Shown here in pieces: positions 1 to 31,803 of a stretch of DNA of 42,517 nucleotides. The DNA is taken from positions 1 through 42,517 of IMG/VR virus record IMGVR_UViG_3300037475_000068; one strand, given 5' to 3'. Under the pieces are notes generated by a model. The model was not told the origin of the DNA, searched no databases, and worked only from the letters and a program-made list of their open reading frames with translations. The position numbers and the translations under genes were made by a program. The DNA is from a virus. The stretch's first letter is position 1. Each line of letters begins with the position of its first letter.

Positions 1-999
1 CACGCGACGCTCCACGAGGCGTTCCACCTCCAGGCCGGTGAAACCGGCGCGGTGGACGCTGCCGCGACGGCCAGGTTCGCTGCCGCGCTGACGCCCGAGG
101 AGCGTCGCGTGCATATCGACGCGACCGCCGATGCCGGCGATCTGGTCAGGGTGTTCAAGCAGCAGTGGTCGGATGATCTGATACTGCGGACGGATAGAGT
201 CGTCGCTTCAGACGATAATCTCTGGGTCGGTTATGATCCCGGCGTCGATCACCCGATGGGCATGCTCGTGGACGCTGTTGGGAGGGACGCTCCGAACACG
301 CTCACCACCGTGAAAGCCTGGATCCGCCGCGGCGGCACGATCGACGACGACATCGCGATGCTCGCGCAGTGGCTGGATGGCCGTGCTGTCGCGGGATTCG
401 TGTACGACACCAACCTGAAGAACAAGGATCGCGGCGGTGGCCCTTCGGTGCTCGAGCAGTTCAAGGACAAGCTGCGCATGCGCGGCGTCACCGTGCATGG
501 CTGGTGGCAGTCACGGAAGAATCACGCGCCGGGCATCAATCTGATGCGCGAGAAGATGATGAAGCGCGAGCTCCGGGTGAATGGCAGTCCGGATTCAGGC
601 GGCATGCTGCTCGTCTCGCAGCTGAAAAAGTACCGCGGTCGCGAGGGAACGCGGTTCACCGGCGAGGGCGGCGTGGTCAAGAAGGATGACGAGCTCGTGG
701 ATGCTCTGAGATACGTCCTGATGGCCGGTCCCGTGTGGCGACGGGAGTGGGCGTGCGGGCTGACGGCGACGCGGGCGGGTGAGGATCTGGATTCGGATTT
801 GGAACCGCAGTCAGCGCAGGAGATCGAGCATGCGCGGCAGCTGGCGCTGAGCCGCCGGGCCGGGGAGTTGCGGTCGGGGCGCGGCGCGGCTGGGCGCGTG
901 CGCGGGATGCGCTCGCAGCTGTGGCTAGCGCGGACGGACACTGGCCAGGCGGTGCCGGTGCCGCCATGGCAGCGGGGTGACGGCGGCGCAGGCGCGTAA
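1..999 (+). CDS. terL: Terminase large subunit, C-terminal part (continues from 41648-42517)
   Basis: This is the 3' part of the DNA-packaging motor gene. The start codon lies at 41648 and the frame crosses the circular junction: codon 112-114 here is the same His codon as 42515-42517. The joined protein is 584 residues. This part carries the RNase H-fold nuclease that cuts concatemeric DNA. Likely metal-binding acids are D331 (in VGYDPGVDH), D388 (in FVYDTN) and D486 (in DDELVDALRY). The ATPase half is described at 41648. The first 11 bases of the window do not match the other end and look like an artefact, so the four residues they encode should be ignored. A short coiled-coil gene follows 3 bases after the stop. 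Confidence 0.9.
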   Translation, partial: HATLHEAFHLQAGETGAVDAAATARFAAALTPEERRVHIDATADAGDLVRVFKQQWSDDLILRTDRVVASDDNLWVGYDPGVDHPMGMLVDAVGRDAPNTLTTVKAWIRRGGTIDDDIAMLAQWLDGRAVAGFVYDTNLKNKDRGGGPSVLEQFKDKLRMRGVTVHGWWQSRKNHAPGINLMREKMMKRELRVNGSPDSGGMLLVSQLKKYRGREGTRFTGEGGVVKKDDELVDALRYVLMAGPVWRREWACGLTATRAGEDLDSDLEPQSAQEIEHARQLALSRRAGELRSGRGAAGRVRGMRSQLWLARTDTGQAVPVPPWQRGDGGAGA

Positions 1000-1002
1000 C
1001 CC

Positions 1003-1227
1003 ATGGACACCGCGGCGCGTATCCGCGTGCTCGCGGAGGTCCGCCGCCGGGCGCTCGAGCAGGGGAAGGCAGAGGGGCGCCGGGATGGCGCGGCTGAGGG
1101 CGGATCGCGGCTGGCGGCGCTCGAGCAGCGCGTGGCGGAGCTCGAGCGAACGCTGTCTGAACTGATTGAAACGTTATCGGCCGATGCGACCAGACGGCTC
1201 GAGCGGCTGGACGACGACCGATCGTGA
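1003..1227 (+). CDS. Small coiled-coil protein after terminase
   Basis: This is a 74-residue soluble protein of unknown function. It is rich in Arg, Glu, Ala and Leu, and residues 30-70 form a heptad-like helix ([20 protein letters not shown]). The ATG lies 3 bases after the terminase stop, so it is probably translationally coupled to it. Its place between terminase and a fibre gene suggests a late protein, perhaps a packaging accessory or small structural component. No family was recognised. The frame is supported by tight packing and strong helical heptads. A palindrome of the dispersed family follows 25 bases downstream. Confidence 0.65.
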
Positions 1228-1251
1228 TAGCGGGCGTGACCGCCGGTTCTG

Positions 1252-1271
1252 CAGGGGACTTCAGTCCCTTG
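1252..1271. repeat. Dispersed palindrome copy 1
   Basis: The core AGGGGACTTCAGTCCCTT is an inverted repeat with 7-8 bp arms (one G-T pair) in the gap between the 74-residue gene and the fibre gene. Related copies lie at 12389, 18202, 30086 and 37991. Each lies at or just beyond a stop codon and ahead of the next gene. There is no T-tract, so it is not a plain intrinsic terminator. Confidence 0.6.
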
Positions 1272-1301
1272 CTGTTCCACGTGGAACGTCTAGGGTTGGC
1301 C

Positions 1302-2828
1302 ATGCCGGTGTTGAATCCGCGTCGATGGCTGGGCGGTCGCTGGGTCGCCGTCATGCTCGCCGCGCTCCTCTGCGTGCTCTCCGGGCTCTGCGCTGTCGTT
1401 CACGGATCCGAGGACGACGCCCCCTGGGCAACCGGCTGGGGCATCCAACGCGTCGCGAAGTCGAGCGGATTCACGCCGACCGCGGCTGATCGCGGAACGT
1501 TCTACGACTGCACGGGATCGTTCACGGTATCGCTGCCCGCGGTGGCGAGCGTAGGCAGCGGGTATCACCTCGTCATTCGCAATGCGAACGCGAACACGAA
1601 CAACATCACGATCGACCCCAGTGGTGTGGAAGCGATCGTTGTGGGCGGCGTTTCAGATGAGGTGTGCGTGCTTTCCTCCGGCCAGGCCGTCGTCATCGTC
1701 TGTACGGGCACGCAATGGGTGGCCGCGGCATCGTCTGGAACGAGCGGGTTGGCCGGTGGCGGCGGAGTGTTCGGCCTTGGCTCCGCGCAGGGCTTGACCG
1801 GCCGACACAACGGCAGGTTCATTCCATGCTCTGGCGGACCCTACACCGTGACGCTACCAGATACTGGCGCGACCGAGAATCTCGGCTGGTGCGCGACTAT
1901 CTGTAACTTGGACGCGGGAACGATCACGGTCGCCGCGCCGGGCGCTCAACGGATCTACTTCAACGGATCGACGGTCGCCTCAACCACGCTCGCTCAGGGT
2001 CAGTCGATCTCGCTGATCAAGTCCGGTGTGGTGTACTACGTGGTGAGCCAGGGAACGCCGAGCGCGTCGGGCACCGCCAGCGGCGATCTCGGCGGCTCGT
2101 ATCCAGGCCCAACCGTCGCGAAGATCAACGGCGTGGCGCTCGGCACAACCTCGGCCACCGCGGGGAAGGTCCTGGCCGGAAACGGGACCACGATCGCCTC
2201 ACTGACGATGTCGGGTGATGCCGCCATCGACGGCGCAGGCGCGCTCACGCTGGCGAACACCGCGGTCACGCCGGGCTCATACACGAACGCGAATATCACA
2301 GTCGACTCCAAGGGGCGGGTGACGTCCGCTGCGAACGGGACCTCGTCTGGGTACTCACTCCTGTTCGCGCAGACGACAGCGACGACGGTCGCGAACACCG
2401 GCGTCGCTACCACGCTCATCGGCGCGGGATCTGGCAGCCTGACCCTCGCGGGAGGATACTGGTCGGCCGGGAAGACCATCCGCGTGAAGATGGCGGGAGT
2501 CATCTCGACCACGGGAACTCCGACGTTCGTCATCGATCCCAGGCTCGGGTCCCATGGTGTCGGCGGCTCCGCGGTGACGCTGGCGACGCTCTCGAGCGCT
2601 CCGTTCAATGTCGAATGCACGTTCACATGCATTACCACTGGCGCGAGCGGTTCGTTCTCCGCTGGCGGCGTCTGGTCTGCCGGTGACAGCCACGGCGTGA
2701 TCAACGCCGTCACTACGACCTTCGACACCACTGCCGCGAACGCGGTGGATATCCTCGCGCAGTGGGGCTCCGCCTCGCCATCGAACACCGTCACGAGCGC
2801 CATCGTCACGCTCGAGGGGTTGAACTAG
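1302..2828 (+). CDS. Tail-fibre-like protein with N-terminal signal/anchor segment
   Basis: This is a 508-residue fibre-like protein. Residues 1-40 look like a Sec signal or anchor: a basic start ([10 protein letters not shown]), the hydrophobic run [19 protein letters not shown], then VHGSEDD. The rest is Gly/Thr/Ala/Ser-rich beta sequence. Residues of the type [20 protein letters not shown], the phrase [20 protein letters not shown] and the stretch [13 protein letters not shown] are typical of phage tail-fibre shafts. The C-terminal part (from about residue 350) resembles a globular beta head. A GTG at 1224 opens the same frame, but the ATG at 1302 gives the clean signal-like N-terminus. 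A Sec signal on a fibre-like protein is unusual; it may be displayed on the host surface rather than, or as well as, assembled into virions. Confidence 0.75.
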
Positions 2829-2830
2829 CC

Positions 2831-3166
2831 ATGTCTCACGCGACGCCACCGTCAGATGAAGCATCCCCATCCGAGGGCACCGCCGCAATCACCCCGCGGT
2901 CGCGCCTGAAGCTGACGCTCTCGCAATTCTGGTCAGTACAGGTCGCGATCATCGGCGTCGCGATCATCATCTACGGCGCGTATCGCGACCTGAAGGACGA
3001 CATCAGGTCGTTCAAAGAGGAGCTCCGGCACGTGGAGCGCGCGGTCGGGGTGAGGCCGCTCGGGGACTCGCGGTCGGGCTCTGATGATTCCTCGGCCGTT
3101 CCCATCAACCCCCCGAGCCGGCCCGCGCTGGCGACGGTCGTCCCTGAACCACGGAGTACACCATGA
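2831..3166 (+). CDS. Single-TM coiled-coil protein (holin or inner-spanin candidate)
   Basis: This 111-residue protein has a polar N-terminus of about 35 residues and one transmembrane segment (WSVQVAIIGVAIIIYGAY). A charged helix follows (RDLKDDIRSFKEELRHVERA), then a Pro/Ser-rich tail. The ATG at 2831 is 2 bases after the fibre stop; in-frame codons further upstream lie inside the fibre gene. One membrane helix followed by a coiled coil is the layout of inner spanins and of some small phage membrane proteins. It overlaps the next, holin-like gene by ATGA. The assignment to lysis rests on context. Confidence 0.65.
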   Translation: MSHATPPSDEASPSEGTAAITPRSRLKLTLSQFWSVQVAIIGVAIIIYGAYRDLKDDIRSFKEELRHVERAVGVRPLGDSRSGSDDSSAVPINPPSRPALATVVPEPRSTP

Positions 3167-3363
3167 AGTCCTGGCGCACCACCCTCTGCGGCTTCCTCGC
3201 CGCGGTATCCGCTGCCATCCCCGCGATCAACGCTGCCATCGACGGCAACCCGGCGACCGTGCCGGATTGGTCGCCGATCTTCCCGGCGCTCATGGCGGCG
3301 ATCGGGCTGATGCTGGCGCGGGACGCGAAGGTCTCGAGCGAGCAGCAGGGTATCAAGCCGTGA
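3163..3363 (+). CDS. Holin-like small membrane protein
   Basis: This 66-residue protein has two hydrophobic segments: residues 6-25 (TTLCGFLAAVSAAIPAINAA) and about 38-52 (WSPIFPALMAAIGLMLA). A short polar tail, RDAKVSSEQQ, follows. The pattern MKSWRTTLCGFLAA...PDWSPI...GLMLARD is common among small phage membrane proteins encoded next to lysis genes. It would sit in the inner membrane and could act as a holin. It is coupled to its neighbours by ATGA and GTGA overlaps. The call is a family resemblance plus context; an endolysin partner was not found. Confidence 0.65.
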   Translation: MKSWRTTLCGFLAAVSAAIPAINAAIDGNPATVPDWSPIFPALMAAIGLMLARDAKVSSEQQGIKP

Positions 3364-3854
3364 GAATCGGCCGCTGCGTTGATTGCGGCGCGGAGTTCAC
3401 GACTCGGGCCCATAACACCATCCGGTGTCGTGGGACCGATTGTGAACGTCGTCGCAATCGCCAGTGGCGCATGAGTCGAAGACGCATGGACGTGCCGGCA
3501 GACAACGAGCGCGTTCGGCAGTGGCGAAAGACGGCAAGGATCCTGGTGATTCTGACGTCGGCGAAATCTCGAGCAAAGCGCCTGGGAATTGAGTTTAGAC
3601 TCTCGCCTGGCGACATCGAGATTCCCGCGGCGTGCCCGATACTGGGCATCCCGCTCGCTTGCGGCAACGGCGTCACGACTCCCGGCTCACCGAGCCTCGA
3701 CCGGATCAACCCGCTTCTCGGCTACGTCCCCGGAAACGTTGCCGTTATCAGCCATCGTGCCAACCGGATTAAGAACGATGCCACCCTCGCGGAACTACTC
3801 CTCGTAGCAGAGTATGTTCGGCGGCATTCGGGCCGGGCGGCCCATGTCGCGTAA
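3360..3854 (+). CDS. HNH-type endonuclease with N-terminal zinc ribbon
   Basis: This 164-residue protein begins with a four-Cys zinc ribbon (C6-x2-C9 and C23-x4-C28), followed by a basic linker and a small HNH-type nuclease domain. The phrase CPILGIPL (92-99), SLDRINP (112-118) and GNVAVISHRANRIKND (125-140) match the phage HNH group whose members typically read SLDRID...GY...NV...S.RAN.IK. It probably cuts DNA as a free-standing homing-type nuclease. The GTG at 3360 overlaps the holin-like stop (GTGA) and preserves both Cys pairs; the longer open frame upstream is antisense to nothing but overlaps two genes. Its place inside the lysis cassette is typical of mobile HNH genes. Confidence 0.8.
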   Translation: MRIGRCVDCGAEFTTRAHNTIRCRGTDCERRRNRQWRMSRRRMDVPADNERVRQWRKTARILVILTSAKSRAKRLGIEFRLSPGDIEIPAACPILGIPLACGNGVTTPGSPSLDRINPLLGYVPGNVAVISHRANRIKNDATLAELLLVAEYVRRHSGRAAHVA

Positions 3855-4084
3855 TGCCCACCCTCCTCGCGTTCGTCGAGGCGCTCGCCTACGGCTTCGC
3901 GAGGGGCTGGTGGAAGGCTTACTTCGAGCTCAAGCAGCGTGGCGAACACGCCTGGGAAGAAACGACGATCGATGAAGACCGCGCCCGTGCTGATCGCTTT
4001 CGTGATGCTGCTCGCGCTGCCGGGCTGCCCCCAGGCGGACCGTCCGATTCCCAGCCGCACGGTCCCACATCGGTTGGCGGCTGA
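3854..4084 (+). CDS. Small lysis-region protein, possible Rz-like partner
   Basis: This 76-residue protein starts at the TAATG overlap with the HNH gene. Residues 3-26 are hydrophobic and aromatic (LLAFVEALAYGFARGWWKAY). A charged helix (residues 27-57, KQRGEHAWEETTIDEDRARA) and a Gly/Pro tail follow. The lipoprotein gene at 3972 is nested in another frame and overlaps its 3' half, as in Rz/Rz1 spanin pairs. The hydrophobic segment is weaker than in classical inner spanins, so the assignment is tentative. The alternative is a small unrelated protein that happens to overlap the lipoprotein. Confidence 0.5.
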   Translation: MPTLLAFVEALAYGFARGWWKAYFELKQRGEHAWEETTIDEDRARADRFRDAARAAGLPPGGPSDSQPHGPTSVGG

Positions 4085-4196
4085 CGTGGACGCCGAGATA
4101 TACGTGCGTACCTCGAGCGGCGACTTCCAGAAGGCATCGGTGATGCTGCCGTCGGGGTGGTATGTGGCGGCGCCTGAGATTGTGGAGGGGAAGTGA
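3972..4196 (+). CDS. Rz1-like outer-membrane lipoprotein (putative o-spanin)
   Basis: This 74-residue protein begins MKTAPVLIAFVMLLALPGC: a basic start, a hydrophobic core and the lipobox LPGC, so the mature form would begin at a lipidated Cys19. The mature part is Pro-rich at first (PQADRPIPSRTVPH), then short and beta-like. The gene lies out of frame over the 3' half of the 3854-4084 gene, the usual Rz1 arrangement. It overlaps the next fibre gene by GTGA. An in-frame start at 3939 adds 11 polar residues before the signal and would spoil it, so the ATG at 3972 is preferred. Spanin function is inferred from architecture. Confidence 0.6.
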   Translation: MKTAPVLIAFVMLLALPGCPQADRPIPSRTVPHRLAADVDAEIYVRTSSGDFQKASVMLPSGWYVAAPEIVEGK

Positions 4197-6808
4197 TCCT
4201 CGCTTCACGATCGGCCCACCTGGTCGCCCTCCTCCTGCTCGTCCTCACCGGCTGGGCGAGCGACGATGTCGTTCCGCCTGGTTACGGCACCATCGGCCTC
4301 GGCCCCTCCAGCATCTCGGCGTCAACGTCTCAATCCGCGCGCCTCGGCCTGCAGTCGAAGTTCGGCCTTGGGCCGCGGACTCCGACCGCGGCCCAGGCGT
4401 TCGCGAAGCCGGCCTTCACCAACCTCAACGATGCTGCGATCACGACCTACACCAGTACCACCGGGCGGTGGGATCCGGTCAACAACGCGATCAAGTACGC
4501 CAACCAGCGCCGGCAGCGCACGTTCACCGTCGCGGGCACGAACTACTCGGCCGACCTGATCGAGAGCGCGCGGACGAACCTGCTCGCCGCCGGAACCTCC
4601 GAGCATTTTGAGCGCTGGACGGTGGGCACCGGTACGCCGGTTATCACGACCGACACCATCGCCTGCCCGAATGCGGAGGTTGTCGCCGACACCCTGACCG
4701 AGGGCGTCGGCACCGGAACGCAGAGCGTCACGCAGTCGATCACCAAGGCGGCCTCGTCTCTCGCCTACGTCGGCTCCTGCTACATCAAGAACAAGACCGG
4801 CACGCGTGAGGTGACGGTCGAACTGGACGACGGCACGACCACGAACGGCGTGTCCATGCGCATCAACCCGGCGACGGGTGCGCTGACCTCGGCTCCGGCT
4901 GCGTTCGGCGCTGGCTGGGCCGTGAACACTGCGGCTGGAACCAGTGGCTACACGATCACCGATGCTGGCTCCGGCTGGTATCGCGTATCGATCGTCGCCA
5001 CCAGCGACACCACGACCACAGTCCGCTTCCGCGTCGCGCTCTACAACGCGGCAGACAGCTACGCCGGTGACGGCACCAGCGCGGTTTATCTATGGGGCGC
5101 CGATGTGAACCAGGCGACGTTTGCGGGCGCGGTGGGGCTGAATCGGAATGTGCTGCTGCAGTCGCAGACGCTCAACACGACGTGGACTAAGACCCGCAGC
5201 ACCATCACCAGCGATGCGGTTGCTGACCCGATCACGGGCGACACGACTGCGGACAAGATTATTGAAGACAATACCGTCACCAACTCACATCTTATCCAAC
5301 AGTCGTTCACCAAAGCGGCATCATCGCTCACCTTTACTTGCTCCGTCTACCTCAAAGCGGCCGAGCGGACATGGGTGCGCCTTGCCTGCTCCGGAACGAA
5401 TGCGCTGACCAACGCCGCTGGAGCCTACTTCGACCTCACGAACGGCGTGACGGGGTCCTCGTTCTCGAATGGAGCGGGATGGACCCTGTCGTCAAAGACG
5501 ATCACTAGCGTAGGAGGCGGGTGGTATCGTTGCTCTATCGTTGTTGTCTCCGCAAGCGAGACGGCCATTTGGGCCAACATCCACTTAGCGACGGCTGACG
5601 GAACGGTCTCTTACACCGGCGACGCGACGAGTGGTCTCTACGCCTGGGGCACGCAGCTTGAATACGGCGGTACGCTGACCCAGTACTGGGCCACCACCAC
5701 CGCCGGCCTGCGCACGGCCGACGAGCTCACCTCGTCGCTCACCGGGATTACGGATGCGCGGACGAACCTCACGCTCTGGTCAGAGCAGATCGACAACGCG
5801 GCATGGACCAAGAACGCCGACGTGACAGTCACCGCGAACAGCGGCACGGACCCGAACGGCAACGGCTACTGCGATCTCATCACCGAGGGCGTCGCCGGCA
5901 CGGCGGCCACCATTTCGCCGGCAGCTACGATTTCGGCCGGCAGCACTGTTGCGGTGTCGTGCTGGTTCAGGGCTTCCGCGCTGACGGCATGGGTCCGCGT
6001 TCAGTGCGCTAGCGACTCCGGGGTGAACGGCTGGACCGCGTGGTACAACCTGAGTACTGGCGCAGTGGGAACGCAAAGCGTTCTCGGGACAGGTACCGCG
6101 TCCTCGATCACCATCAGCAGCTATGGCAACGGCTGGTATCGCTGCATGAGCACCGGGAAGGTGGCTCCAGCCGCGACGGCGATGAACTTCCGCTTCAGTT
6201 CAGCCGACGCCGATGCCAGCACCACGCGCGTCTCCTCGTCCGCCTACTACGCCTTCGGCGCCCAGGTGGAGCGGGCCTCCACCGTCGGCACCTACATGCC
6301 CGTCGGCGGCACCGCGATCACCACGACGCAGACCGGCCTCTCGCGCACGACGGGCACGCTGGTGTCGATCGTCATGCCGAGGAATTGGACGGGGGATCAG
6401 GATGGAAGCACGGCGTTCCGTATCTTGGCTGGCATAGATGATGCCAATTTAGCTATCCGCAAGTCCAGCGGCGCCACAACTGCGCCGGTCTATTCGCGCG
6501 GCGACACGGCTACGGGGCGCGCAATCACGGGCGCTAGCTGGACATCGAATCTTGTGAGCGGATCGCTCGTCCAGGCGACGATTACTTGGAGTCCCGGCAC
6601 CTTGGCCGGTTACATCAACGGCGGCTCTCCTCCTGCAGGTCCTGCGCAGGTCGCTCTGCCGTGGTCGACCTGCACTCAAATCGTGATCGGTTCGGCCGCT
6701 ACAGGAACGCTCGCCGACTTCGCATACAACCTCATCCTCTACAGCCACCAGCAAGTAGTCCCCGGCTCGACGCTCGCCCTCATGTACGCGAACACGAGCG
6801 CGCCGTGA
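4193..6808 (+). CDS. Large secreted fibre/adhesin-like protein with three repeated modules
   Basis: This 871-residue protein begins with a Sec-like signal (residues 1-23, core LVALLLLVLTG, possible cleavage after GWA). Three related modules of about 180-190 residues start near 127, 318 and 515. Each opens R(T/N)(N)L or RNVLL, has a W(T/K) strand near residue 15, a central ITKAASSL-like stretch, and ends GWYR(V/C)S followed by Y.(W/F)GA or Y.WGTQ. Such modules resemble jelly-roll carbohydrate-binding units of phage appendages. The last 150 residues resemble a lectin/LamG-like fold (GYINGGSPP, LILYSH). It starts GTG at 4193, overlapping the lipoprotein stop. Function is probably glycan binding, either on the virion or exported to the host surface; the signal favours export. 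Confidence 0.7.
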   Translation: MILASRSAHLVALLLLVLTGWASDDVVPPGYGTIGLGPSSISASTSQSARLGLQSKFGLGPRTPTAAQAFAKPAFTNLNDAAITTYTSTTGRWDPVNNAIKYANQRRQRTFTVAGTNYSADLIESARTNLLAAGTSEHFERWTVGTGTPVITTDTIACPNAEVVADTLTEGVGTGTQSVTQSITKAASSLAYVGSCYIKNKTGTREVTVELDDGTTTNGVSMRINPATGALTSAPAAFGAGWAVNTAAGTSGYTITDAGSGWYRVSIVATSDTTTTVRFRVALYNAADSYAGDGTSAVYLWGADVNQATFAGAVGLNRNVLLQSQTLNTTWTKTRSTITSDAVADPITGDTTADKIIEDNTVTNSHLIQQSFTKAASSLTFTCSVYLKAAERTWVRLACSGTNALTNAAGAYFDLTNGVTGSSFSNGAGWTLSSKTITSVGGGWYRCSIVVVSASETAIWANIHLATADGTVSYTGDATSGLYAWGTQLEYGGTLTQYWATTTAGLRTADELTSSLTGITDARTNLTLWSEQIDNAAWTKNADVTVTANSGTDPNGNGYCDLITEGVAGTAATISPAATISAGSTVAVSCWFRASALTAWVRVQCASDSGVNGWTAWYNLSTGAVGTQSVLGTGTASSITISSYGNGWYRCMSTGKVAPAATAMNFRFSSADADASTTRVSSSAYYAFGAQVERASTVGTYMPVGGTAITTTQTGLSRTTGTLVSIVMPRNWTGDQDGSTAFRILAGIDDANLAIRKSSGATTAPVYSRGDTATGRAITGASWTSNLVSGSLVQATITWSPGTLAGYINGGSPPAGPAQVALPWSTCTQIVIGSAATGTLADFAYNLILYSHQQVVPGSTLALMYANTSAP

Positions 6809-7116
6809 GGACTGCCATCCTCCTCTGCCTGGCGCTCACGGCTCCTGCAGCCGACCTGCTCCACGAGCCGATCGCGGTGCACTACAACTACGAGAGCCAC
6901 GCCCTTGCCGGCGCGGTCGTCGGCATCGCCGTCGAGGAGATCCTCCGCAAGGAGACTCCGCTTAACCGCATCGAGCGCCTCGTCACCGCCGCCGTGGCCG
7001 CGCTCGCGATCGGCGCGGGCAAGGAGTACCTGCTCGACATCCACGCGCGCCCGCGCGAGATCCCGCCGTGGGGTTGTGGGGCCGCCGCCGCCATCTCCTT
7101 CCGCTACGCATTTTAA
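6805..7116 (+). CDS. Exported small membrane protein
   Basis: This 103-residue protein starts at GTG 6805, overlapping the fibre stop (GTGA). Residues 1-17 form a signal (MRTAILLCLALTAPA, AxA-type cleavage). Further hydrophobic segments lie at about 32-42 (ALAGAVVGIAV), 57-71 (LVTAAVAALAIGAGK) and the C-terminus (GCGAAAAISF). The pattern H..AG...G......(21 residues)..GKEYLLD recalls small YfiM/DUF2279-type proteins, but the match is only by eye. It probably lies in the cell envelope. It sits between two exported proteins, suggesting a common envelope role. Confidence 0.55.
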   Translation: MRTAILLCLALTAPAADLLHEPIAVHYNYESHALAGAVVGIAVEEILRKETPLNRIERLVTAAVAALAIGAGKEYLLDIHARPREIPPWGCGAAAAISFRYAF

Positions 7117-7126
7117 GGAAATACCC

Positions 7127-7507
7127 ATGCGCCCCTCCGTCCGTCTCTTCGCTTCACTCCTCGCCCTGTTCGTCCTCGCGACGTCCGGCTTCGCCGTCAC
7201 CACGGCGACCTACGACATCACGGCGATCCCGCAGATCAGTATCAGCGGCGGCCTCGCGCTGACGTCGACCGAGACGACGATCACGCTCACCAAGGGCCAG
7301 GTCCCTGGTCGGGTCGTGCAGCTGACCTGCGAGCAGGACTGGGGCATCGCGACCGCCACCGGCGCGTTCGCGACCAAGCAGCCGGTCCCGGCTGGTGTGC
7401 CGTTCACGATCGAGATCAAGGGCGACTCGACCGTCCTCTACGTGCAGGCGTCGTCGACCTCTGGCACCATCCACACCTCGGCGCTCGCGGCGACGTCGCA
7501 GAATTAG
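7127..7507 (+). CDS. Small secreted beta-rich protein
   Basis: This 126-residue protein has a textbook signal: MRPSVRLFASLLALFVLATS, then GFA as a cleavage site near residue 23. The mature part is Thr/Ser-rich beta sequence (ISISGGLALTSTETTITLTK) with one Cys in LTCEQDW. The ATG at 7127 follows AAGGAA. No family was recognised. The stop is followed by a 39-base gap and then the portal gene. It belongs to a run of four exported proteins in the terminase-to-portal interval (fibre, fibre, membrane protein, this one). Confidence 0.6.
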   Translation: MRPSVRLFASLLALFVLATSGFAVTTATYDITAIPQISISGGLALTSTETTITLTKGQVPGRVVQLTCEQDWGIATATGAFATKQPVPAGVPFTIEIKGDSTVLYVQASSTSGTIHTSALAATSQN

Positions 7508-7546
7508 CTCTCCGCCCCTCCGACCACCGCCCAGATCGGATCACCC

Positions 7547-9553
7547 GTGCCACTCCCCTCTGCAGCCGAAGCTGATCGCATCGCCAAGATCCTCGTCGGC
7601 ATCCGCAAGTCGGGGCTGAAGGCGCGCGAGCAGTTCGACAAGACCGGCGATGAGGTGTGGAAATACGCCTACGATCCGACGTTCACCTTCCTGTACCAGG
7701 ACTGGGAGAACAACAACGGCGAATTATTCTTCAAGGCCAAGATCGCCGCGGCGGCGCAGTACATCGAGGTGATGGGGCCGTACCTCTACCAATACAACCC
7801 GACCTACGAGATCCAGCCCGAGCACGATCAGGCCGAGCAGCAGCAGATGCCGCCCTCATGGTCGGATCGCCGCTATGCCGTCGAGAAGCGCTACCTGTCG
7901 TGGTCCGCGAAGCGCGGCGACCAGTATGGCCACTCGAGGCGTGCGGTGGACGAGGCGGTCACGCGCGGCCGCGGCATCCTGTGGACTGGGTACAACGCGC
8001 GCCGGAAATGCGTGCAGCACGTCTACGGCCCGGCGAAGGAGCTCATCGACGACCCGGATGCTCGGAACACCGAGGAGCGCAACCTCATCATGCGCGACAG
8101 GCTGAAGCCGCGCTGGGAGCTCGCGAACCTGTACCCGGCACGCCGGGCGGTGATCTGGGGTCTGCCGAAGGCCGGCAACCTGCCGACCGGCATGTCGCAA
8201 CAGTCGTCGGGTGGCAAAGCCACGGAGATCGTCCGCTACACCGAGGCGTACCTGCGCATCGGTATCGGCAACTACGGATCGGGCACCGGCACGGACGACG
8301 CCGATGGCGCACCGGTGCAGGACGCGCCGCTGAAGTACATCTTCGCCGACGACGAGCTCCTCGACGTTCTGCCGTGGGAGATCCCCTTCTGGCGCGACGA
8401 CCTCTGGCCGTGCTCGACGCTCGACCTCCAGCGCATCCCGAACAGCATCTATCCGGCCCCTCCGCTCGAGGCTGGGTTGGGACTGCTCCGTGCGCTGAAT
8501 TGGAGCCACACGCTGATCCTGTCGCAGCTTCAGATCGCGACGCGGCTGTCGTTCGTGGTGATGAACATCAACGGCCAGAAGATGGATATCTCTCAGCTGC
8601 TGAAGATCATCCGCGGCGAACACTACGACATCGCCGTGCTGGATCAGGTCGGCAATGAGTACACGAACATCAATCAGGTCATCCAGCAGCTGAAGATCGA
8701 GACGTCGCTCCCGCTCCTGCGCGAGCTCAACGACATGCTGAGCCTGGAATTCCAGAAATCGACCGGCCTCTACGACCTCCTGTTCGCTGGTCAGACGCAG
8801 ACGCAGCTGCGCACCGCTGAGGACGTCAAGCTCAAGGACCGCAACTCGCGCAGCCGCATCGAGGACCGCTCGGAGAGCGTGCGCAAGTGGGCCACTGAAT
8901 GCGGGCGGAAGTCGCGCTTCGCCGCTCGGTATCTCGAGGGACCGGACGACATCTCGCAGCTGTTCGGACCCGAGGCCGGCGAAGTCTGGGGTGACCTGGC
9001 ATCGCCCGAGGAGGTCGCGGCGAACCACCAGAAGCGCACGCAGGTCTTCCAGATGGCCTATCAGCAGATCGGCCAGTTCGAGCAGCAGCAATACCTGCAG
9101 GCGCAGGCTCAGTTCCAGCGCGTCGCCGCGCAGGCCGGCGAACAGGCCGGAAGCGCGATGGCCGCTGGCATGCAAGCGCCGCCCCCGCCTCAGCCACCTC
9201 CGCCTCCGAGCGCCGAGCAGATCGAGCAGCAGGCCGTCGCGGTCACCGATCAGCAGGCCCCGGACAACCTCGTCGACTTCGACCAGTGGATGCTCGAGGC
9301 CGACGTGTCGATCGAGTCGGGCAGCATGCGCCGCAAGGACATCACGCAGGAGATCGACGTCTACACCGAGGCGTCGAACCAGCTGATGCCGACGATGCTG
9401 CAATCGCCGAACCCGAAGGTTCAGGGCATCGCCCTGAAGATCGCGGCGCGGAAGTTTGAGGTCGCGGGCGCTCCGGAGGAGCTCGTGAATCAGATCACCG
9501 AGGCGGCCGGGCTCGTGGAGAACACGCCGCCGATGATGCCGGGAGCCAAGTAG
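7547..9553 (+). CDS. Portal protein
   Basis: This 668-residue protein is placed where a portal should be: between terminase and scaffold/coat. It forms the dodecameric ring through which DNA enters and leaves the head. Visible features are an alpha/beta N-terminal half, Tyr- and Trp-rich stretches (YVEKRYL-type, GYNARRKC) and a long central helix region (TNINQVIQQLKIETSLPLL). A C-terminal third is Gln-rich, with a Pro run near residues 545-555 (APPPPQPPPPP) and a helical tail. Length suits podoviral portals (about 500-750 residues). Start is GTG at 7547. The assignment rests on position, length and general composition rather than a diagnostic motif. Confidence 0.75.
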   Translation: MPLPSAAEADRIAKILVGIRKSGLKAREQFDKTGDEVWKYAYDPTFTFLYQDWENNNGELFFKAKIAAAAQYIEVMGPYLYQYNPTYEIQPEHDQAEQQQMPPSWSDRRYAVEKRYLSWSAKRGDQYGHSRRAVDEAVTRGRGILWTGYNARRKCVQHVYGPAKELIDDPDARNTEERNLIMRDRLKPRWELANLYPARRAVIWGLPKAGNLPTGMSQQSSGGKATEIVRYTEAYLRIGIGNYGSGTGTDDADGAPVQDAPLKYIFADDELLDVLPWEIPFWRDDLWPCSTLDLQRIPNSIYPAPPLEAGLGLLRALNWSHTLILSQLQIATRLSFVVMNINGQKMDISQLLKIIRGEHYDIAVLDQVGNEYTNINQVIQQLKIETSLPLLRELNDMLSLEFQKSTGLYDLLFAGQTQTQLRTAEDVKLKDRNSRSRIEDRSESVRKWATECGRKSRFAARYLEGPDDISQLFGPEAGEVWGDLASPEEVAANHQKRTQVFQMAYQQIGQFEQQQYLQAQAQFQRVAAQAGEQAGSAMAAGMQAPPPPQPPPPPSAEQIEQQAVAVTDQQAPDNLVDFDQWMLEADVSIESGSMRRKDITQEIDVYTEASNQLMPTMLQSPNPKVQGIALKIAARKFEVAGAPEELVNQITEAAGLVENTPPMMPGAK

Positions 9554-9554
9554 C

Positions 9555-9860
9555 ATGTGCCGCTACGATTATCTCTGTGAGAAATGCGAGCATGAGCATG
9601 AGCAGATCCACCGCATGGCGGACGCGCCTCAGCCTTGCCCGAGATGTGGATGCACGCGGGTGACCAAGGTGTTCCGCCAGGTCCCGCCCGTGCGCGTTCC
9701 GGACGCCGGCTGGCAATTCGAGAACAACGGCCGCGGTCGCTACATCGGCCAACTGGCAGCCAAACCAGACGTCACCGACCCGAATGCCTTCTGCCGCTCC
9801 CGCACCGATGCGGTGGAGAAGGCGAAGCGGCAGGGCTGGAAGAATATCGAGAAGGTCTAG
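9555..9860 (+). CDS. FmdB-type zinc-ribbon protein
   Basis: This 101-residue protein starts at the ATG one base after the portal stop. It has two CxxC knuckles, CEKC (8-11) and CPRC (28-31), in the pattern YDYLCEKCEHEHEQ...PCPRCG, matching the FmdB/regulatory zinc-ribbon family often found between head genes in phages. The C-terminal half (GWQFENNGRGRYIGQL...AFCRSRTDAVEKAKRQG) is a conserved-looking extension. The role in phages is unknown; a structural or chaperone-like zinc protein is plausible. It is followed by a short perfect hairpin before the scaffold gene. Confidence 0.75.
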   Translation: MCRYDYLCEKCEHEHEQIHRMADAPQPCPRCGCTRVTKVFRQVPPVRVPDAGWQFENNGRGRYIGQLAAKPDVTDPNAFCRSRTDAVEKAKRQGWKNIEKV

Positions 9861-9865
9861 AAACC

Positions 9866-9879
9866 GCGGCATTTGCCGC
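9866..9879. repeat. Short perfect hairpin before scaffold gene
   Basis: GCGGCATTTGCCGC is a perfect 6-bp inverted repeat with a two-base centre, lying between the zinc-ribbon stop and the scaffold ribosome-binding site (AGGAG). It could be a minor RNA hairpin. It has no T-tract. Confidence 0.35.
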
Positions 9880-9892
9880 CCAGGAGTAAACC

Positions 9893-11056
9893 ATGGGTAT
9901 CGAGTCAACTGGTATTGACGAGGCCGAGGAAGTGGATAGCGTCGACGCAGCCGCCAATGTCGCGGCTGACGACGGAACGCCCGACGCCCCCGATGGGGAC
10001 CTTGGGAAACCTGACTCAGCCACCGCAGAAGCCGGTGACGTCGATGGCAATGGCCCCGCGCCAGATGGCGCCGAGCCGGAGCAGCAGCCAAGCGAGGCGG
10101 GGCAGCGCAAACTGCCGACCACTCGCCGCCCTGAAGCAACGACAACCCCTCAACTGCCCACCAACAAGCCGAATACCGCCGGAAAGAGTCCGGCGGTCGA
10201 CCCGCGTGCCGAAGCCGGCCGCTGGGGCGAGGAGAAGCAGCGTCTTACGTCGCAGATGACGGAGATGCAGAAGCAACTCGCTGCCTTCCAGGAAGGCGAA
10301 CAGCGCCGCAAGGCCGAGGCCGACAAGCTCGCCCTGAAGCCCTGGCACCCGCAGCATCCCGACAGCGCTGCAGCCAAGGACCGGATCGGTCGCGTCAAGG
10401 CGTACATGAACGCCCTGAATGCGATCCCGCCCGAGGCGCAGACCGATGCGGTCAAGGCCAAGCTCGCCCGCGAGCTCCGCGTCTCGAATGAGGACGCGAA
10501 GCTCCACGACGACTTCGAGGCTCACCGCGAGTCGGTCGTGAACCAGCTGTCGAGCGACCCGGAAGGGTTCCTCGACCAGCGTGTTCAGCAGGTCGTGCCG
10601 CGTCTGATCCAGGATGCGTTCAACCAGTTCTTCGCGCATCAGCGCGCTGAGCAGGACGTCTCGAAGATGATGGCCGACCCGGCGAAGATCGCCCCGCACG
10701 CCGACCTCATCCGCGAGCGCCTCCAGTCAGGATCGAGCCTGAAGGACGTGATGGAAATCGTCGAGCTCAAGAACCGACTCGCAGCCCTCGAGGGCAACGC
10801 GGGAGCGGTCGCCGGCAAGACGGAGGAAGTCACCCGCCGCGAGAAGGCGGCCGCGGAACGCGAGCGCCTCGCCAAGGGAGCCGCGGGAATCACCCGCGAC
10901 CCGAAGACGACCGGCAAGCCTGACTTCTACGCGCAGGCGCTGAAGGAATCACGGGAGCATGCCGGCGATCGTAGCTGGCAGCCTGGTGGGTCACGATTCA
11001 ACAAGCATTTGGCTCGCCTCGAAGAGGCGCACCACAATGCAGGGGATCCGGCCTAA
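9893..11056 (+). CDS. Scaffold-like capsid assembly protein
   Basis: This 387-residue protein directly precedes the coat gene. Residues 1-110 are acidic and low-complexity (TGIDEAEEVDSVDAAANVAA). A long charged helix follows near 115-150 (EEKQRLTSQMTEMQKQLAAF), and further helices extend to about 310. The C-terminus is basic and polar. This is the usual look of podoviral scaffolding proteins, which template procapsid assembly and are then removed. A good AGGAG lies 8 bases before the ATG. No protease motif was seen. Confidence 0.7.
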   Translation: MGIESTGIDEAEEVDSVDAAANVAADDGTPDAPDGDLGKPDSATAEAGDVDGNGPAPDGAEPEQQPSEAGQRKLPTTRRPEATTTPQLPTNKPNTAGKSPAVDPRAEAGRWGEEKQRLTSQMTEMQKQLAAFQEGEQRRKAEADKLALKPWHPQHPDSAAAKDRIGRVKAYMNALNAIPPEAQTDAVKAKLARELRVSNEDAKLHDDFEAHRESVVNQLSSDPEGFLDQRVQQVVPRLIQDAFNQFFAHQRAEQDVSKMMADPAKIAPHADLIRERLQSGSSLKDVMEIVELKNRLAALEGNAGAVAGKTEEVTRREKAAAERERLAKGAAGITRDPKTTGKPDFYAQALKESREHAGDRSWQPGGSRFNKHLARLEEAHHNAGDPA

Positions 11057-12382: not shown

Positions 12383-12388
12383 ATGGCC

Positions 12389-12406
12389 AGGGGACTTTAG
12401 TCCCTT
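12389..12406. repeat. Dispersed palindrome copy 2
   Basis: AGGGGACTTTAGTCCCTT lies just after the coat stop. Its arms are AGGGGACT and AGTCCCTT (one G-T pair). In mRNA it would form a short hairpin at the 3' end of the coat message and before the next ribosome-binding site. Confidence 0.6.
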
Positions 12407-14510: not shown

Positions 14511-14732
14511 GTGGAATGGGATGGCATCCAAGACGACGTAACCGACATCGCCGATCCAGGCGTAACGTCAGTGCGTTCGCTGTGGAACGGGTCGCTCGTC
14601 GTTCGCGGTGAGTTCTCGCGTCGTCCTGGTTTCGGCGCGCGGATGCCGAGCAGCGGGATCGTGTGCGCGGAGATCGCCGAGCTCGTCGTGTGGGTGAAGG
14701 ATGACGGGACGATTGTGAGCGCGCCGCAATGA
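14511..14732 (+). CDS. Short protein resembling the N-terminus of a tail nozzle
   Basis: This 73-residue protein starts at GTG 14511 and overlaps the next gene by ATGA. The sequence MEWDGIQDDVTDIADPGVTS...NGSLVVRGEFSRRPGFGARM resembles the first part of podoviral nozzle/stabilisation proteins, which often open with a W..(G/L).D.......P.(G/A) segment and an RPGF/RPGL turn. The continuation typical of such proteins appears only downstream of a SPRY-PKD block in the next gene. It may therefore be the detached N-terminal segment of that protein, which would dock non-covalently. Another reading is a small unrelated virion protein. Confidence 0.55.
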   Translation: MEWDGIQDDVTDIADPGVTSVRSLWNGSLVVRGEFSRRPGFGARMPSSGIVCAEIAELVVWVKDDGTIVSAPQ

Positions 14733-17539
14733 GCTGGGATCCGCTCAAGAAGGGCTCGCACGTATCGCTGTCGGTCGGCGATACCGTGGCCGACGTCAAC
14801 GGAGATCAGGACTGCGTCCTCGGCGCCCTCGGGCTCGACTGCTCGACGATGACCGGGAAGAAGTGCTTCGAGATCACCCTCGGGGCAAACGCCAACGGGC
14901 CTATCTTCGGCGTCGCTCAGTCCGGCCAGGACTACAACGAGACGCTCGCGTGGGACGTCTACGGCTGGGCCTGGTGCGCGATGAATTCGCCCACCGCGAA
15001 GTTCCACAGCGGAAATCAGGGAGCGTACGGAACGTCGCTGTCATTCGTCGGCGCTGTCGTCTACGTAATGGTGACGGTCGACTTCGACGCTGGGACGATC
15101 AGTTTCCGCTACGGCACGGCATCGGGACCGCCGACCGCCGATTACGGCGTCGCCTTCAGCGGCCTTTCTGGTGTCATCTATCCGGCGTTCGGCGTCGGCT
15201 ACACCGGCAGCGATCACGATTACGGGACTCTCAATGAGGACGGTCCATTCGTTCTCGACGTTGAGTCAGGCGCAACGCCCTGGGCAGCCGCCGTTCCGGT
15301 CGCATCGTTCTCGCTAGCCCCTTCCAGCGGAGACGCCCCGCTCTCCGTGGCGTTCACCGACACGAGTACCGGAACCCCGACCTCGTGGCTCTGGGACTTC
15401 GGCGACGGTAGCACCTCGACCTCGCAGAATCCGACGCACGACTACGCGACCGACGGAACCTACGACGTCACCCTCACCGCTACCAATGCGCTCGGCTCAG
15501 ATACGCACGTCGCATTGGCCGCTGTCGTCGCCACGATCGCCCCGGCAACGACCCTGCGCTCCGGCTACAATGTCGGCCTGGTCCCCTGCCTCGCGCAGGC
15601 GTTCCAGCGCCTATACATGGTCAACGACTTCGACCGCATGCAGGTCACGGACGATGGGCTGACGATCCGCGATTCTGGTATCGACTATCCGACTGTCGAT
15701 CCGACTCCGACCAGCGCGATTGGCGGCACCGTGAACGCCGGCGTCCACCTCATCCGTTACCGCTATCAGGATCAGTTGCGCGGGCGTTTGTCGAATCCCT
15801 CGAACGCTGCAAGTATCTCGATCGTGGCTGGCAGTCAGACGATCAACGTCGGATTTACGCCATCGGCCGATCCGTACGTTACCCACGTCATCGTAGAGAT
15901 GACTCCAGCCGGAGCCTCGACATACTACCGGGCAGCGGTGGTGTCGAACACGCTGACGACGACCGCGATCACGATGGACGACGACTCGTTGATCGAGCAG
16001 ATCACCGCGGCGAGGGACGGAGAATTCCAGCATCTGCCGCCAGGATTGTCGTCGATCGTCGCCGAGCACCGCCAGCGCGTGTGGATTTGGGGCGCCGAGC
16101 CGCGGACGTTCACCGGATGCACGCTCACCAATGGATCGCCGACCATCAGCGGCACCGGATTCTCGACGGAATGGGCAGGTCGCCAGGTCGTCGCGCCTGA
16201 TGGTCTGACCTACGCCATCGATTCGGCGACGACTACGGACATCACGCTCGATACGAATTACGCCGGCCCGAACACCGGCGCGGGGACGATCATCGTCAAG
16301 TCCGGGACGCCGTCGCTGCTCGGCTGGTCACGAGCCGGGTTCCCCGAGTCGTTCGACACCACGGTATTTGCACGCTCCATCAGCTTGGATGCCGGCGACA
16401 CCCCCGCGGCGATGGCGTCGTACTTCTCCGACCTCTACCTCATGGGCAAGCGGTCCATGCGGCGCCTAGTGTTCACCGGCGATCCTGCCGCGGGCATGCT
16501 CCTGTCGGTTCCGGGCACCATGGGCGCGTTCCACCAGCGCTGCGTGTGCTCGGCTGGTCCGGGCCTGCTGTTCGGCTGGGGTCGTGACGGCGCCTGGAAG
16601 ATCGAGGCGATGCAGCCGCAGAAGATCAGTGCTCGCGTCGAGCAGACGTTGGCGGCTCTGGGCGACACGGATAGGATCGCCGAGCGATTCGTGTGCTACG
16701 AGCCGGTCCAGCGCGTCGCGCAGTTCTTCTTCTGCCTCGTGGGTGAGTCAACCTGCCGCGCCGCGCTCGCCTATCACATCGAAACCGGCATCTGGGAGCT
16801 CTGGCGCTACCGCCAGGGCATCCTCAGCGCGTGTGCGAACAGCGCCTATGCTGACCGCCAGCGCCTTATGATCGCCGACGAGAACGGATACAGCTGGCGC
16901 ATGGGCGTCAAGGTCAACGACGGCGAAGACGCGAATGTGATGACGGCCACGACGGGATCGACGACAACCGACGTCCTCGGCACGAATGCCGCGGTCGCTG
17001 GTCAGATCGCCTATCGCCCGGCTACCGGAGAGGAGCGTCTGATCACCTCGTGCAGCCCGACGCAGATCATTTGCGATGCGTTCGCCACGGCCCCCGCGAA
17101 CGGCGAATTGATCTATATCGGATCGATCAAGCAGCGGATCCTGACCGACTGGTTCATCGGCGACGGACTCGACCACAAATCGCGCCCGCAGTGGCTGCGC
17201 GTGAAGCTGCGGGCCAATCGCGCCGCCGGCCAGTACATGGGCAAGGCGCAGGTGCGTTTTTACCGCAATTTCGATATGTCGAGCCCGATGGGCATCACGT
17301 CTATGTCCGCTGACGAATGGCCCATGGGCGTGCAACCGGTGGACGGCGATACCAAGATCACGATCGACCTCGACGTCGGTGGCCTCGACGGGTTCATTCC
17401 TGTTCCAGTCCCCGACGATTGGAGCCGCGCCATATGCGCCGAAATCATCCACGAGGAGCCGTACCACCCGGTGCGATTCTACGACCTCGAGTTCGCTGCC
17501 GATGATCGCAATGCGGGCGCCAAGGTGGGGAACGAGTAA
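14729..17539 (+). CDS. Tail nozzle/hub-like protein with SPRY and PKD domains
   Basis: This protein is 936 residues. Residues 1-177 read as a SPRY/B30.2-like domain: KCFEITLG, GPIFGVAQ, GWAWCAMNS, a KFHSGNQGAYG loop, VTVDFDAGTISFRYG, VAFSGLSGVIYPAFGVG. Residues 189-268 are a clear PKD domain (FTDTSTGTPTSWLWDFGDGS, NPTHDYATDGTYDVTLTATN). Residues 270-936 resemble podoviral nozzle/needle-base proteins: beta-propeller-like repeats with YFSDLYLMGKRSMRRLVFTG, FHQRCVCSAGPGLLFGWGRD and VAQFFFCLVG. The core would extend the adaptor and gate DNA exit; SPRY and PKD are adhesion-type modules. The ATG overlaps the preceding short gene by ATGA. Confidence 0.75.
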   Translation: MSWDPLKKGSHVSLSVGDTVADVNGDQDCVLGALGLDCSTMTGKKCFEITLGANANGPIFGVAQSGQDYNETLAWDVYGWAWCAMNSPTAKFHSGNQGAYGTSLSFVGAVVYVMVTVDFDAGTISFRYGTASGPPTADYGVAFSGLSGVIYPAFGVGYTGSDHDYGTLNEDGPFVLDVESGATPWAAAVPVASFSLAPSSGDAPLSVAFTDTSTGTPTSWLWDFGDGSTSTSQNPTHDYATDGTYDVTLTATNALGSDTHVALAAVVATIAPATTLRSGYNVGLVPCLAQAFQRLYMVNDFDRMQVTDDGLTIRDSGIDYPTVDPTPTSAIGGTVNAGVHLIRYRYQDQLRGRLSNPSNAASISIVAGSQTINVGFTPSADPYVTHVIVEMTPAGASTYYRAAVVSNTLTTTAITMDDDSLIEQITAARDGEFQHLPPGLSSIVAEHRQRVWIWGAEPRTFTGCTLTNGSPTISGTGFSTEWAGRQVVAPDGLTYAIDSATTTDITLDTNYAGPNTGAGTIIVKSGTPSLLGWSRAGFPESFDTTVFARSISLDAGDTPAAMASYFSDLYLMGKRSMRRLVFTGDPAAGMLLSVPGTMGAFHQRCVCSAGPGLLFGWGRDGAWKIEAMQPQKISARVEQTLAALGDTDRIAERFVCYEPVQRVAQFFFCLVGESTCRAALAYHIETGIWELWRYRQGILSACANSAYADRQRLMIADENGYSWRMGVKVNDGEDANVMTATTGSTTTDVLGTNAAVAGQIAYRPATGEERLITSCSPTQIICDAFATAPANGELIYIGSIKQRILTDWFIGDGLDHKSRPQWLRVKLRANRAAGQYMGKAQVRFYRNFDMSSPMGITSMSADEWPMGVQPVDGDTKITIDLDVGGLDGFIPVPVPDDWSRAICAEIIHEEPYHPVRFYDLEFAADDRNAGAKVGNE

Positions 17540-18213
17540 TGCCGTTCTCGACCAATGCGCCGTTCAACGAGCGCGGATACGCCGAGGTCCTCCGGGACAT
17601 CGAGTACCACCAATTGAAGATCCAGGAGTTGTTCAAGGCCGCGGGCATCAATGACGGCGACCTGAATCCGGGCGGTGGTCAAGGCGTATCTCAGGACATC
17701 GCCGATGATTCGTGGGGATCGCCGCCGGACACGGCGGACGCGGACGCGGTGAAGGGGCTGCTGTACACCGCCAACATGGCGGCCGGGCCGTTCGCCTGGA
17801 CGGTGCCAAGCGGCCTGTTCAATGCCGATTACCTCGGCTACGACGACCTCGGCGGGTGGGACCCAACGGCGAGCGCTGCTGCCAGCGTCTGGACCGCGCC
17901 GTCCGATGGGGTCTATGCGATCGACATCCAGGCCTACATCACGCTTGCCGGCGCAACGGTTGGACAGCTGATCAACCTGGTCGTGGATGCCGTGAGCTCC
18001 TTCAAGGGCCAGAATCCGCCGGGAATCACCATCCGGGACCTCAGGGCCGCCCACTTGGCCGCTGACTCGCTCGCCCTGCGAGTGTCGCTGACGCGCCCGT
18101 TCCTGGCCGGAGATACCGTCACCGCGTATATCACCATGGCCGGCGGCAGCGGCACTTACACCCTGACGAGCTCGAGCCAGGTCTTCAGCGCGACGAAGAT
18201 CAGGGGACTTTAA
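17539..18213 (+). CDS. Tail-associated protein with C-terminal C1q-like domain
   Basis: This 224-residue protein starts at the TAATG overlap with the nozzle gene. Residues 1-45 include a helix (ERGYAEVLRDIEYHQLKIQE) suited to trimer formation or attachment. Residues 90-224 are a beta sandwich like the C1q/TNF fold often used as a fibre tip (ASVWTAPSDGVYAIDIQAYI, RPFLAGDTVTAYITMAGGSG). It could be a short fibre or tail spike subunit. Its stop codon TAA lies within the third dispersed palindrome, so that element forms the end of the coding sequence. Confidence 0.55.
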   Translation: MPFSTNAPFNERGYAEVLRDIEYHQLKIQELFKAAGINDGDLNPGGGQGVSQDIADDSWGSPPDTADADAVKGLLYTANMAAGPFAWTVPSGLFNADYLGYDDLGGWDPTASAAASVWTAPSDGVYAIDIQAYITLAGATVGQLINLVVDAVSSFKGQNPPGITIRDLRAAHLAADSLALRVSLTRPFLAGDTVTAYITMAGGSGTYTLTSSSQVFSATKIRGL

Positions 18214-18219
18214 TCCCAT
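18202..18219. repeat. Dispersed palindrome copy 3 (degenerate)
   Basis: AGGGGACTTTAATCCCAT is a weaker copy of the family. The TAA stop of the preceding gene lies at its centre, so the element overlaps coding sequence. Arms pair at 5-6 positions. Confidence 0.45.
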
Positions 18220-30085: not shown

Positions 30086-30107
30086 CCAGGGGACGTATGT
30101 CCCCTGG
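30086..30107. repeat. Dispersed palindrome copy 4 (perfect)
   Basis: CCAGGGGAC (30086-30094) and GTCCCCTGG (30099-30107) are perfect 9-bp arms around GTAT. It lies between the DUF669-like gene and the tRNA on the minus strand, so it would form a hairpin at the 3' end of the DUF669-like message and before the tRNA. It could mark a processing or stop point. Confidence 0.65.
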
Positions 30108-30128
30108 TTAATCATGCATGAGTGAAGC

Positions 30129-31352: not shown

Positions 31353-31803
31353 TCGATGTCGGCGGGGGTGTCCCACCGTCCTGTGTTGGCCCCGGTTGAA
31401 TGGGATGGGGCAGTGATCCCTGGGAGGTGGCGGATGGGGCGACGTCGGATCCGGCGCGCTGCACCAGCGGCGGCTTCCTGACGGCCTTCCCCATGCCGCG
31501 ATAGAGGTACGGGCGACCGTTGCCGACGCGCGCGACCGCGCGGATCTGCATCAGAGTCGCCGGCATCGGAACGCCTGGGTAGCAGGCGGCGAGCTCGAGG
31601 TCGTGGACGGTGAGCGTGCCCGCGCGCTGCAGGTCGAGGATCTTGTCGAGTCGGCGCTCAGCGGCGCGGCGTGAGGAGGCGTTGACCGCCCACATTTGCG
31701 CCTGCGCCAGCCCGTTGCCGGTGATGACGCACAGGAACCAGTAGCCGTTGCGCGTGCTCGGCGTGCGGGAGCGCGGGGTGATGATGGCGTGGCGGCGGAT
31801 CAC
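31315..31803 (-). CDS. Hypothetical protein in the recombination operon
   Basis: This 162-residue protein starts GTG at 31803 overlapping the Cas4-like stop. Residues 1-115 look folded (GYWFLCVITGNGLAQAQMWA, RRLDKILDLQRAGTLTVHDL). The last 45 are Pro/Ser/Gly-rich and likely disordered. It contains no motif I recognise. Its place between the nuclease and ATPase suggests an accessory role in recombination. Confidence 0.55.
   Translation of the reverse strand: MIRRHAIITPRSRTPSTRNGYWFLCVITGNGLAQAQMWAVNASSRRAAERRLDKILDLQRAGTLTVHDLELAACYPGVPMPATLMQIRAVARVGNGRPYLYRGMGKAVRKPPLVQRAGSDVAPSATSQGSLPHPIQPGPTQDGGTPPPTSNAHPEGSTEAGH

Follow-up and report, generated by a model that had tools for sequence, protein, structure and literature searches.

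Two large fibre-type proteins encoded among the late genes of a phage carry signal-type N-termini followed by spike-fibre or tail-fibre domains, and no such signals were found on the fibres of its relatives. The usual view is that tailed phages assemble their fibres in the cytoplasm. Because the signal stands where homologues start or dock, exported glycan binders are the simplest reading of these proteins. Judged from their N-termini, export of the signal-type proteins through Sec is probable. Our fuller explanation, put forward tentatively, is that exported glycan-binding fibres would be freed at lysis, bind host polysaccharide and mask debris, and would not be built into the virion.

The window, by which we mean the whole stretch of DNA analysed (42,517 nt, IMG/VR record IMGVR_UViG_3300037475_000068), very probably represents the whole of a circularly permuted genome of ~42.4 kb, since its two ends overlap by 103 identical bases within the TerL gene (1-114 and 42404-42517). 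A CI-like repressor and an integrase are encoded, so the phage is probably temperate. Searches gave no relative of the portal among named phages and no prophage relatives in GTDB genomes. Comparisons were made with related IMG/VR phages, namely L004 (portal 44% identical, C-terminal TerL 41%), L005-L009 (TerL ~49%) and L011 (TerL 29%). A small FmdB-like zinc-ribbon protein (9555-9860) follows the portal gene, as in L006 (11774-12070) and L011 (6396-6725). The cassette between terminase and portal comprises ten genes, and genes are named here by their first position. The features discussed below are:

1-999: TerL, at the start of the record
1252-1268: palindrome CAGGGGACTTCAGTCCC, located 34 nt upstream of the 1302 start codon and with two sister copies ahead of virion genes
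1302-2828, + strand: fibre protein 1302, 508 aa, signal-type N-terminus followed by tail-fibre domains
2831-3166, + strand: single-pass membrane/coiled-coil protein of lysis type, between the fibres
3163-3363, + strand: holin-like small membrane protein of lysis type, weak holin PHROG match
3972-4196, + strand: small lipoprotein 3972, lipobox LPGC, out-of-frame overlap with the ORF at 3854-4084
4193-6808, + strand: spike fibre protein 4193, 871 aa, with three domains of the GTA head-spike fibre type; its C-terminal region is modelled at low confidence
4193-4261, + strand: signal-type N-terminus of 4193, VILASRSAHLVALLLLVLTGWA followed by SDD, from the sole available start codon
4574-6322, + strand: three beta-sandwich spike-fibre domains (residues ~128-308, 320-515 and 520-710)
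6805-7116, + strand: small protein 6805, 103 aa, short signal-type start (site between APA and AD), two hydrophobic stretches
7127-7507, + strand: small protein 7127, 126 aa, signal-type start (site between GFA and VTT), then a probable beta region
7547: start of the portal gene

N-termini were scored with a simple rule of our own, which combines a charged start (n-region net charge of at least +1), a hydrophobic core (11 residues without D/E/K/R/H/N/Q, mean Kyte-Doolittle ≥2.3) and small residues at positions -3 and -1. Five of the 49 called genes pass (1302, 3972, 4193, 6805 and 7127), all of them between terminase and portal, and none of the other 44 does. These are exactly the genes to which the earlier note had assigned Sec-type signals (1302, 4193, 6805 and 7127) or the label of lipoprotein (3972), and under this rule the assignment holds for all five, with the reservation that the start of 6805 is uncertain. 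The rule is passed by 1 of 196 other ORFs and by 1.4% of all ATG/GTG codons with 45 open codons, and the Sec/SPI features of 1302, 4193, 6805 and 7127 (charged n-region, core and -3/-1 site) are to be read against this background of ~1%. That all five passing genes would be among the ten of the cassette, given 49 in total, has a chance of ~1e-4 (252/1,906,884). Elsewhere, the best start of a PD-(D/E)XK-type exonuclease (31800-32819, minus strand), far from the cassette, gives a hydrophobic N-terminus without a charged n-region (MILILAIVALSLAAVV / MILILAIVALSLAAVVADG), a possible start over-extension.

The start codons are secure to different degrees. 4193 begins at a GTG with a strong Shine-Dalgarno sequence (SD energy -9.8) and 7127 at an ATG with AAGGA upstream; neither has another start codon in its first 50 codons, and their signals are therefore not errors of start calling. 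For 1302, whose signal-type region spans residues ~1-35 with a predicted site between VHG and SEDD, the hydrophobic core follows, or begins at, each candidate start (1224 to 1353). The start at 1302 is supported as the true one by the palindrome, because copies lie 26-37 nt before the starts of 1302, 12441 and 18243. The palindrome (CAGGGGACTTYAGTCCC) has three late-region copies (1252-1268, 12388-12404 and 18201-18217, the third with one mismatch), with 8 strand-matches observed versus 0.9 expected, is absent from the relatives fetched, and may act as an operator or form an mRNA hairpin. Beside tRNA-Gly, at 30088-30109, there is a perfect palindrome of related sequence, CCAGGGGACGTATGTCCCCTGG. 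6805 is the weakest of the five signals, having a poor Shine-Dalgarno sequence and an alternative GTG at 6877.

By sequence, 4193 belongs to a family of glycan-binding virion fibres. It matches NCBIfam NF048003 (GTA_spike_fiber) in three stretches with E=3e-70 and 236.4 bits (cut-off 36), the head spike fibre Rcc01080 of the Rhodobacter capsulatus GTA (RcGTA; sequence of PDB 6tb9) with E=1.3e-27, and PHROG tail proteins; the suggestion in the earlier note that glycan-binding proteins are encoded here finds support in this family membership of 4193. A model from 25 aligned sequences contains three beta domains, whose pLDDT is mostly 70-97, plus a helix at residues 7-18 within a low-confidence stretch covering the first 127 residues. 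Among its fold neighbours are phage tail fibres, tandem CBM22 domains and lectin-like phage proteins, with the low whole-chain TM-scores expected of a flexible multidomain chain. Matches to insecticidal-protein folds had very low TM-scores, probably reflecting common carbohydrate-binding beta-sandwich domains, and were set aside. Tagged Rcc01080 is reported to bind better to capsulated cells (PMC10218006), and the RcGTA fibre to dock through a leucine-rich hydrophobic N-terminal peptide (PMC7296036). 4193 begins instead with a charged start and an unbroken leucine-rich core, with only a short IGLG at residues 34-37. The alternating (iso)leucine/glycine pattern of the docking peptide (residues 2-10) is not found in 4193; the protein thus has the spike-fibre domain, but its head-spike role in the virion is only putative. 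No base protein for 4193 was identified; 7127 is a candidate for the pentameric jelly-roll base by size and position only. High cysteine counts (10 and 10) were weighed as a hint of oxidative folding and dropped, since spike 14729, which is unexported, has as many or more per residue, and so do several early proteins. This second spike-like protein of 936 aa, at 14729-17539 in the late region, has SPRY and PKD domains but starts without a signal.

1302 contains a tail-fibre segment found also in several phage tail fibres, and one of its domains occurs in an L008 fibre as well (pairwise E=2e-4); the searches used returned no IMG/VR relatives for 1302 or 7127. No relatives of 6805 were found, and neither 6805 nor 7127 has a credible one in INPHARED. 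The single-sequence model of 7127 is poor (pLDDT 43.5), and comparison with the small protein of L006 gave no credible match.

Signals are not usual for such fibres. Among 82 distinct GTA spike-fibre homologues with complete N-termini, 81 fail the rule; the sole exception (L020) has a later Met that is the likelier start, and its pass is probably a start over-extension, so that no credible signal is predicted in the set. Docking-type starts among these homologues are glycine-rich (e.g. GLGIGL and GVGLGLG) and fail the rule, and the six homologous fibres taken from named phages fail it too. In related phages, fibres in the same gap (2696 and 3467 in L008, 2389 in L006, 4391 in L004, and in L009) also lack a signal, and signal-like hydrophobic starts in that gap are confined to lipoproteins, single-pass membrane proteins and overlapping ORFs. 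Since homologues, named-phage fibres and same-gap fibres are all without a credible signal, the signal appears to be a specific addition. Fibre location and lysis-type genes are thus common to the group, and fibre signals special to the window phage among those examined. The earlier note held that a signal on fibres is unusual, which agrees with these comparisons, and proposed looking for its conservation across related phages; the fibres of L004, L006, L008 and L009 all start without one, and no closer relatives that could show conservation were found. A conserved exported cassette is ruled out by these signal-less fibres. In the accessible parts of the open-licence literature, no report was found of a Sec signal on any protein of the GTA-spike or tail-fibre type.

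Lipoprotein 3972 is nested with the ORF at 3854, in the layout of L011 3804 nested with 3707, and relatives show the same arrangement of lipoprotein and membrane genes between terminase and portal. This spanin-like layout, at 3854/3972 as in L011, comes without a match to a known spanin family. By layout alone, 3972 is probably an o-spanin-like lysis gene rather than part of the exported fibres, and together with membrane proteins 2831 and 3163 and ORF 3854 it probably forms an ordinary lysis module. Homology was not detected between 3972 and the L011 lipoprotein, nor credibly between 2831 and L006:5254, and no endolysin was found. An endonuclease VII/HNH-like nuclease (3363-3854) with lower GC3 (0.68), between the holin-like and lipoprotein genes, is probably a mobile intruder. 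Export-type starts on the fibres are confirmed, but the idea of one exported cassette is unsupported, because 3972, 2831, 3163 and 3854 look like a lysis module, as in relatives, with the HNH nuclease inserted too. Because no separate promoter was found in 1-10000 (sigma70 type, the only promoter class covered) and GC3 of the cassette genes resembles that of their neighbours, the cassette fits late expression with the virion genes. There was also no terminator excess in 1-10000. A lysogenic-conversion moron with its own promoter and terminator was rejected on these three results.

We propose that 1302 and 4193, as glycan-binding fibres of virion type, and the small protein 7127 would be made as Sec precursors late in infection, together with virion and lysis proteins. 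The precursors would cross the inner membrane, lose their signals (near GWA/SDD in 4193 and GFA/VTT in 7127) and fold in the periplasm of a presumably diderm host. They would be stored there until set free at lysis, the lipoprotein and membrane proteins encoded between the fibres being the probable lysis module. Released fibres may then bind capsule, LPS or other envelope glycans of the host, and the likeliest benefit would be that receptors on debris and neighbouring cells are masked and progeny are not lost to them. Several points count against export and masking. Large fibres would be wasted by export if they are needed on virions, and to our knowledge receptor masking has no precedent in the GTA spike-fibre family. 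The hydrophobic docking peptide of the RcGTA fibre itself (PMC7296036) also weighs against export.

That peptide is the basis of a rival account, which we find doubtful, in which the hydrophobic N-termini are docking peptides (compare IALGLGLGL of RcGTA) or targets of a phage protease and the fibres stay cytoplasmic. Protease targeting has a parallel in Porphyromonas phages, where predicted signals on capsid proteins are reported to be probable prohead-protease targets (PMC10367356). The docking-type starts of homologues, however, are glycine-rich and fail the signal rule, whereas four unrelated proteins here combine a charged start with an unbroken core and small residues at -3/-1. It is unlikely that the products are virion fibres that undergo export and cleavage first and join the particles only once the cell has lysed, or at the envelope, so that part of the particle matures outside the cytoplasm. 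Both fibres do bear domains of virion fibres, and the IGLG kept at the mature N-terminus of 4193 is reminiscent of RcGTA-type docking peptides and recalls the GLGIGL and GVGLGLG of homologues; but this stretch is very short and no base protein accompanies it. We know of no tailed phage that is finished outside the cytoplasm. The more specific version, with the phage's own spike fibres exported via Sec, matured in an oxidising compartment and joining the capsid after lysis to complete particles outside the cytoplasm, we consider quite unlikely.

Display on the host surface, which the earlier note suggested for superinfection exclusion or adhesion, is improbable. Sec alone reaches only the periplasm in a diderm cell, and the sequences of 1302 and 4193 show neither a lipobox nor any other anchor that was recognised, so surface display is unsupported. 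The genes are moreover placed with late and lysis genes, without a separate promoter for lysogenic expression having been found. In favour of display are the glycan-binding family together with the signal, and the example of lambda Lom, which bears a signal, is encoded among tail genes and is expressed by lysogens (PMC12309495). Chance or artefact, with starts called wrongly or hydrophobic N-termini arising at random in a GC-rich genome, is very improbable. The exonuclease likewise starts hydrophobic and the start of 6805 is uncertain, but 4193 and 7127 have no other start, the clustering has a chance of ~1e-4, and the background rate is ~0.5-1.4%.

A secretion signal added to a fibre of the head-spike family, in which a relative has been characterised, offers a clean test case. 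With it one can ask whether receptor-binding proteins have become exported effectors (for debris masking, rival blocking or capsule altering) or whether some virions are finished outside the cytoplasm. If exported, such fibres may be a source of naturally exported capsule-binding modules.

The fibre family and phage proteins with signals are both already known. 4193 resembles Rcc01080 and NF048003 in having the domain, in three copies, of a family that binds polysaccharide capsule (PMC10218006), and differs in having a Sec-type signal in place of the docking peptide. L004, L006, L008 and L009 are alike in location, in fibre-type proteins and in adjoining lipoprotein and membrane genes; unlike those of the window phage, their own fibres start without a signal. 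Like the lipoprotein gene of a two-component spanin, 3972 shares an out-of-frame overlap with a small ORF and lies in a late cluster that also has a holin-like gene, although it matches no known spanin by sequence. T5 Llp is a small receptor-masking lipoprotein. It shares with the proposed explanation the benefit of protecting progeny from receptors on debris, whereas the window fibres are large, glycan-binding by family and without the lipobox or membrane anchor of the Llp type. Secreted-type proteins are also encoded by Porphyromonas phages (PMC10367356). Like the window fibres, lambda Lom is phage-encoded, signal-bearing and located among virion genes (PMC12309495); unlike these glycan-binding fibres, it is an outer-membrane beta-barrel.
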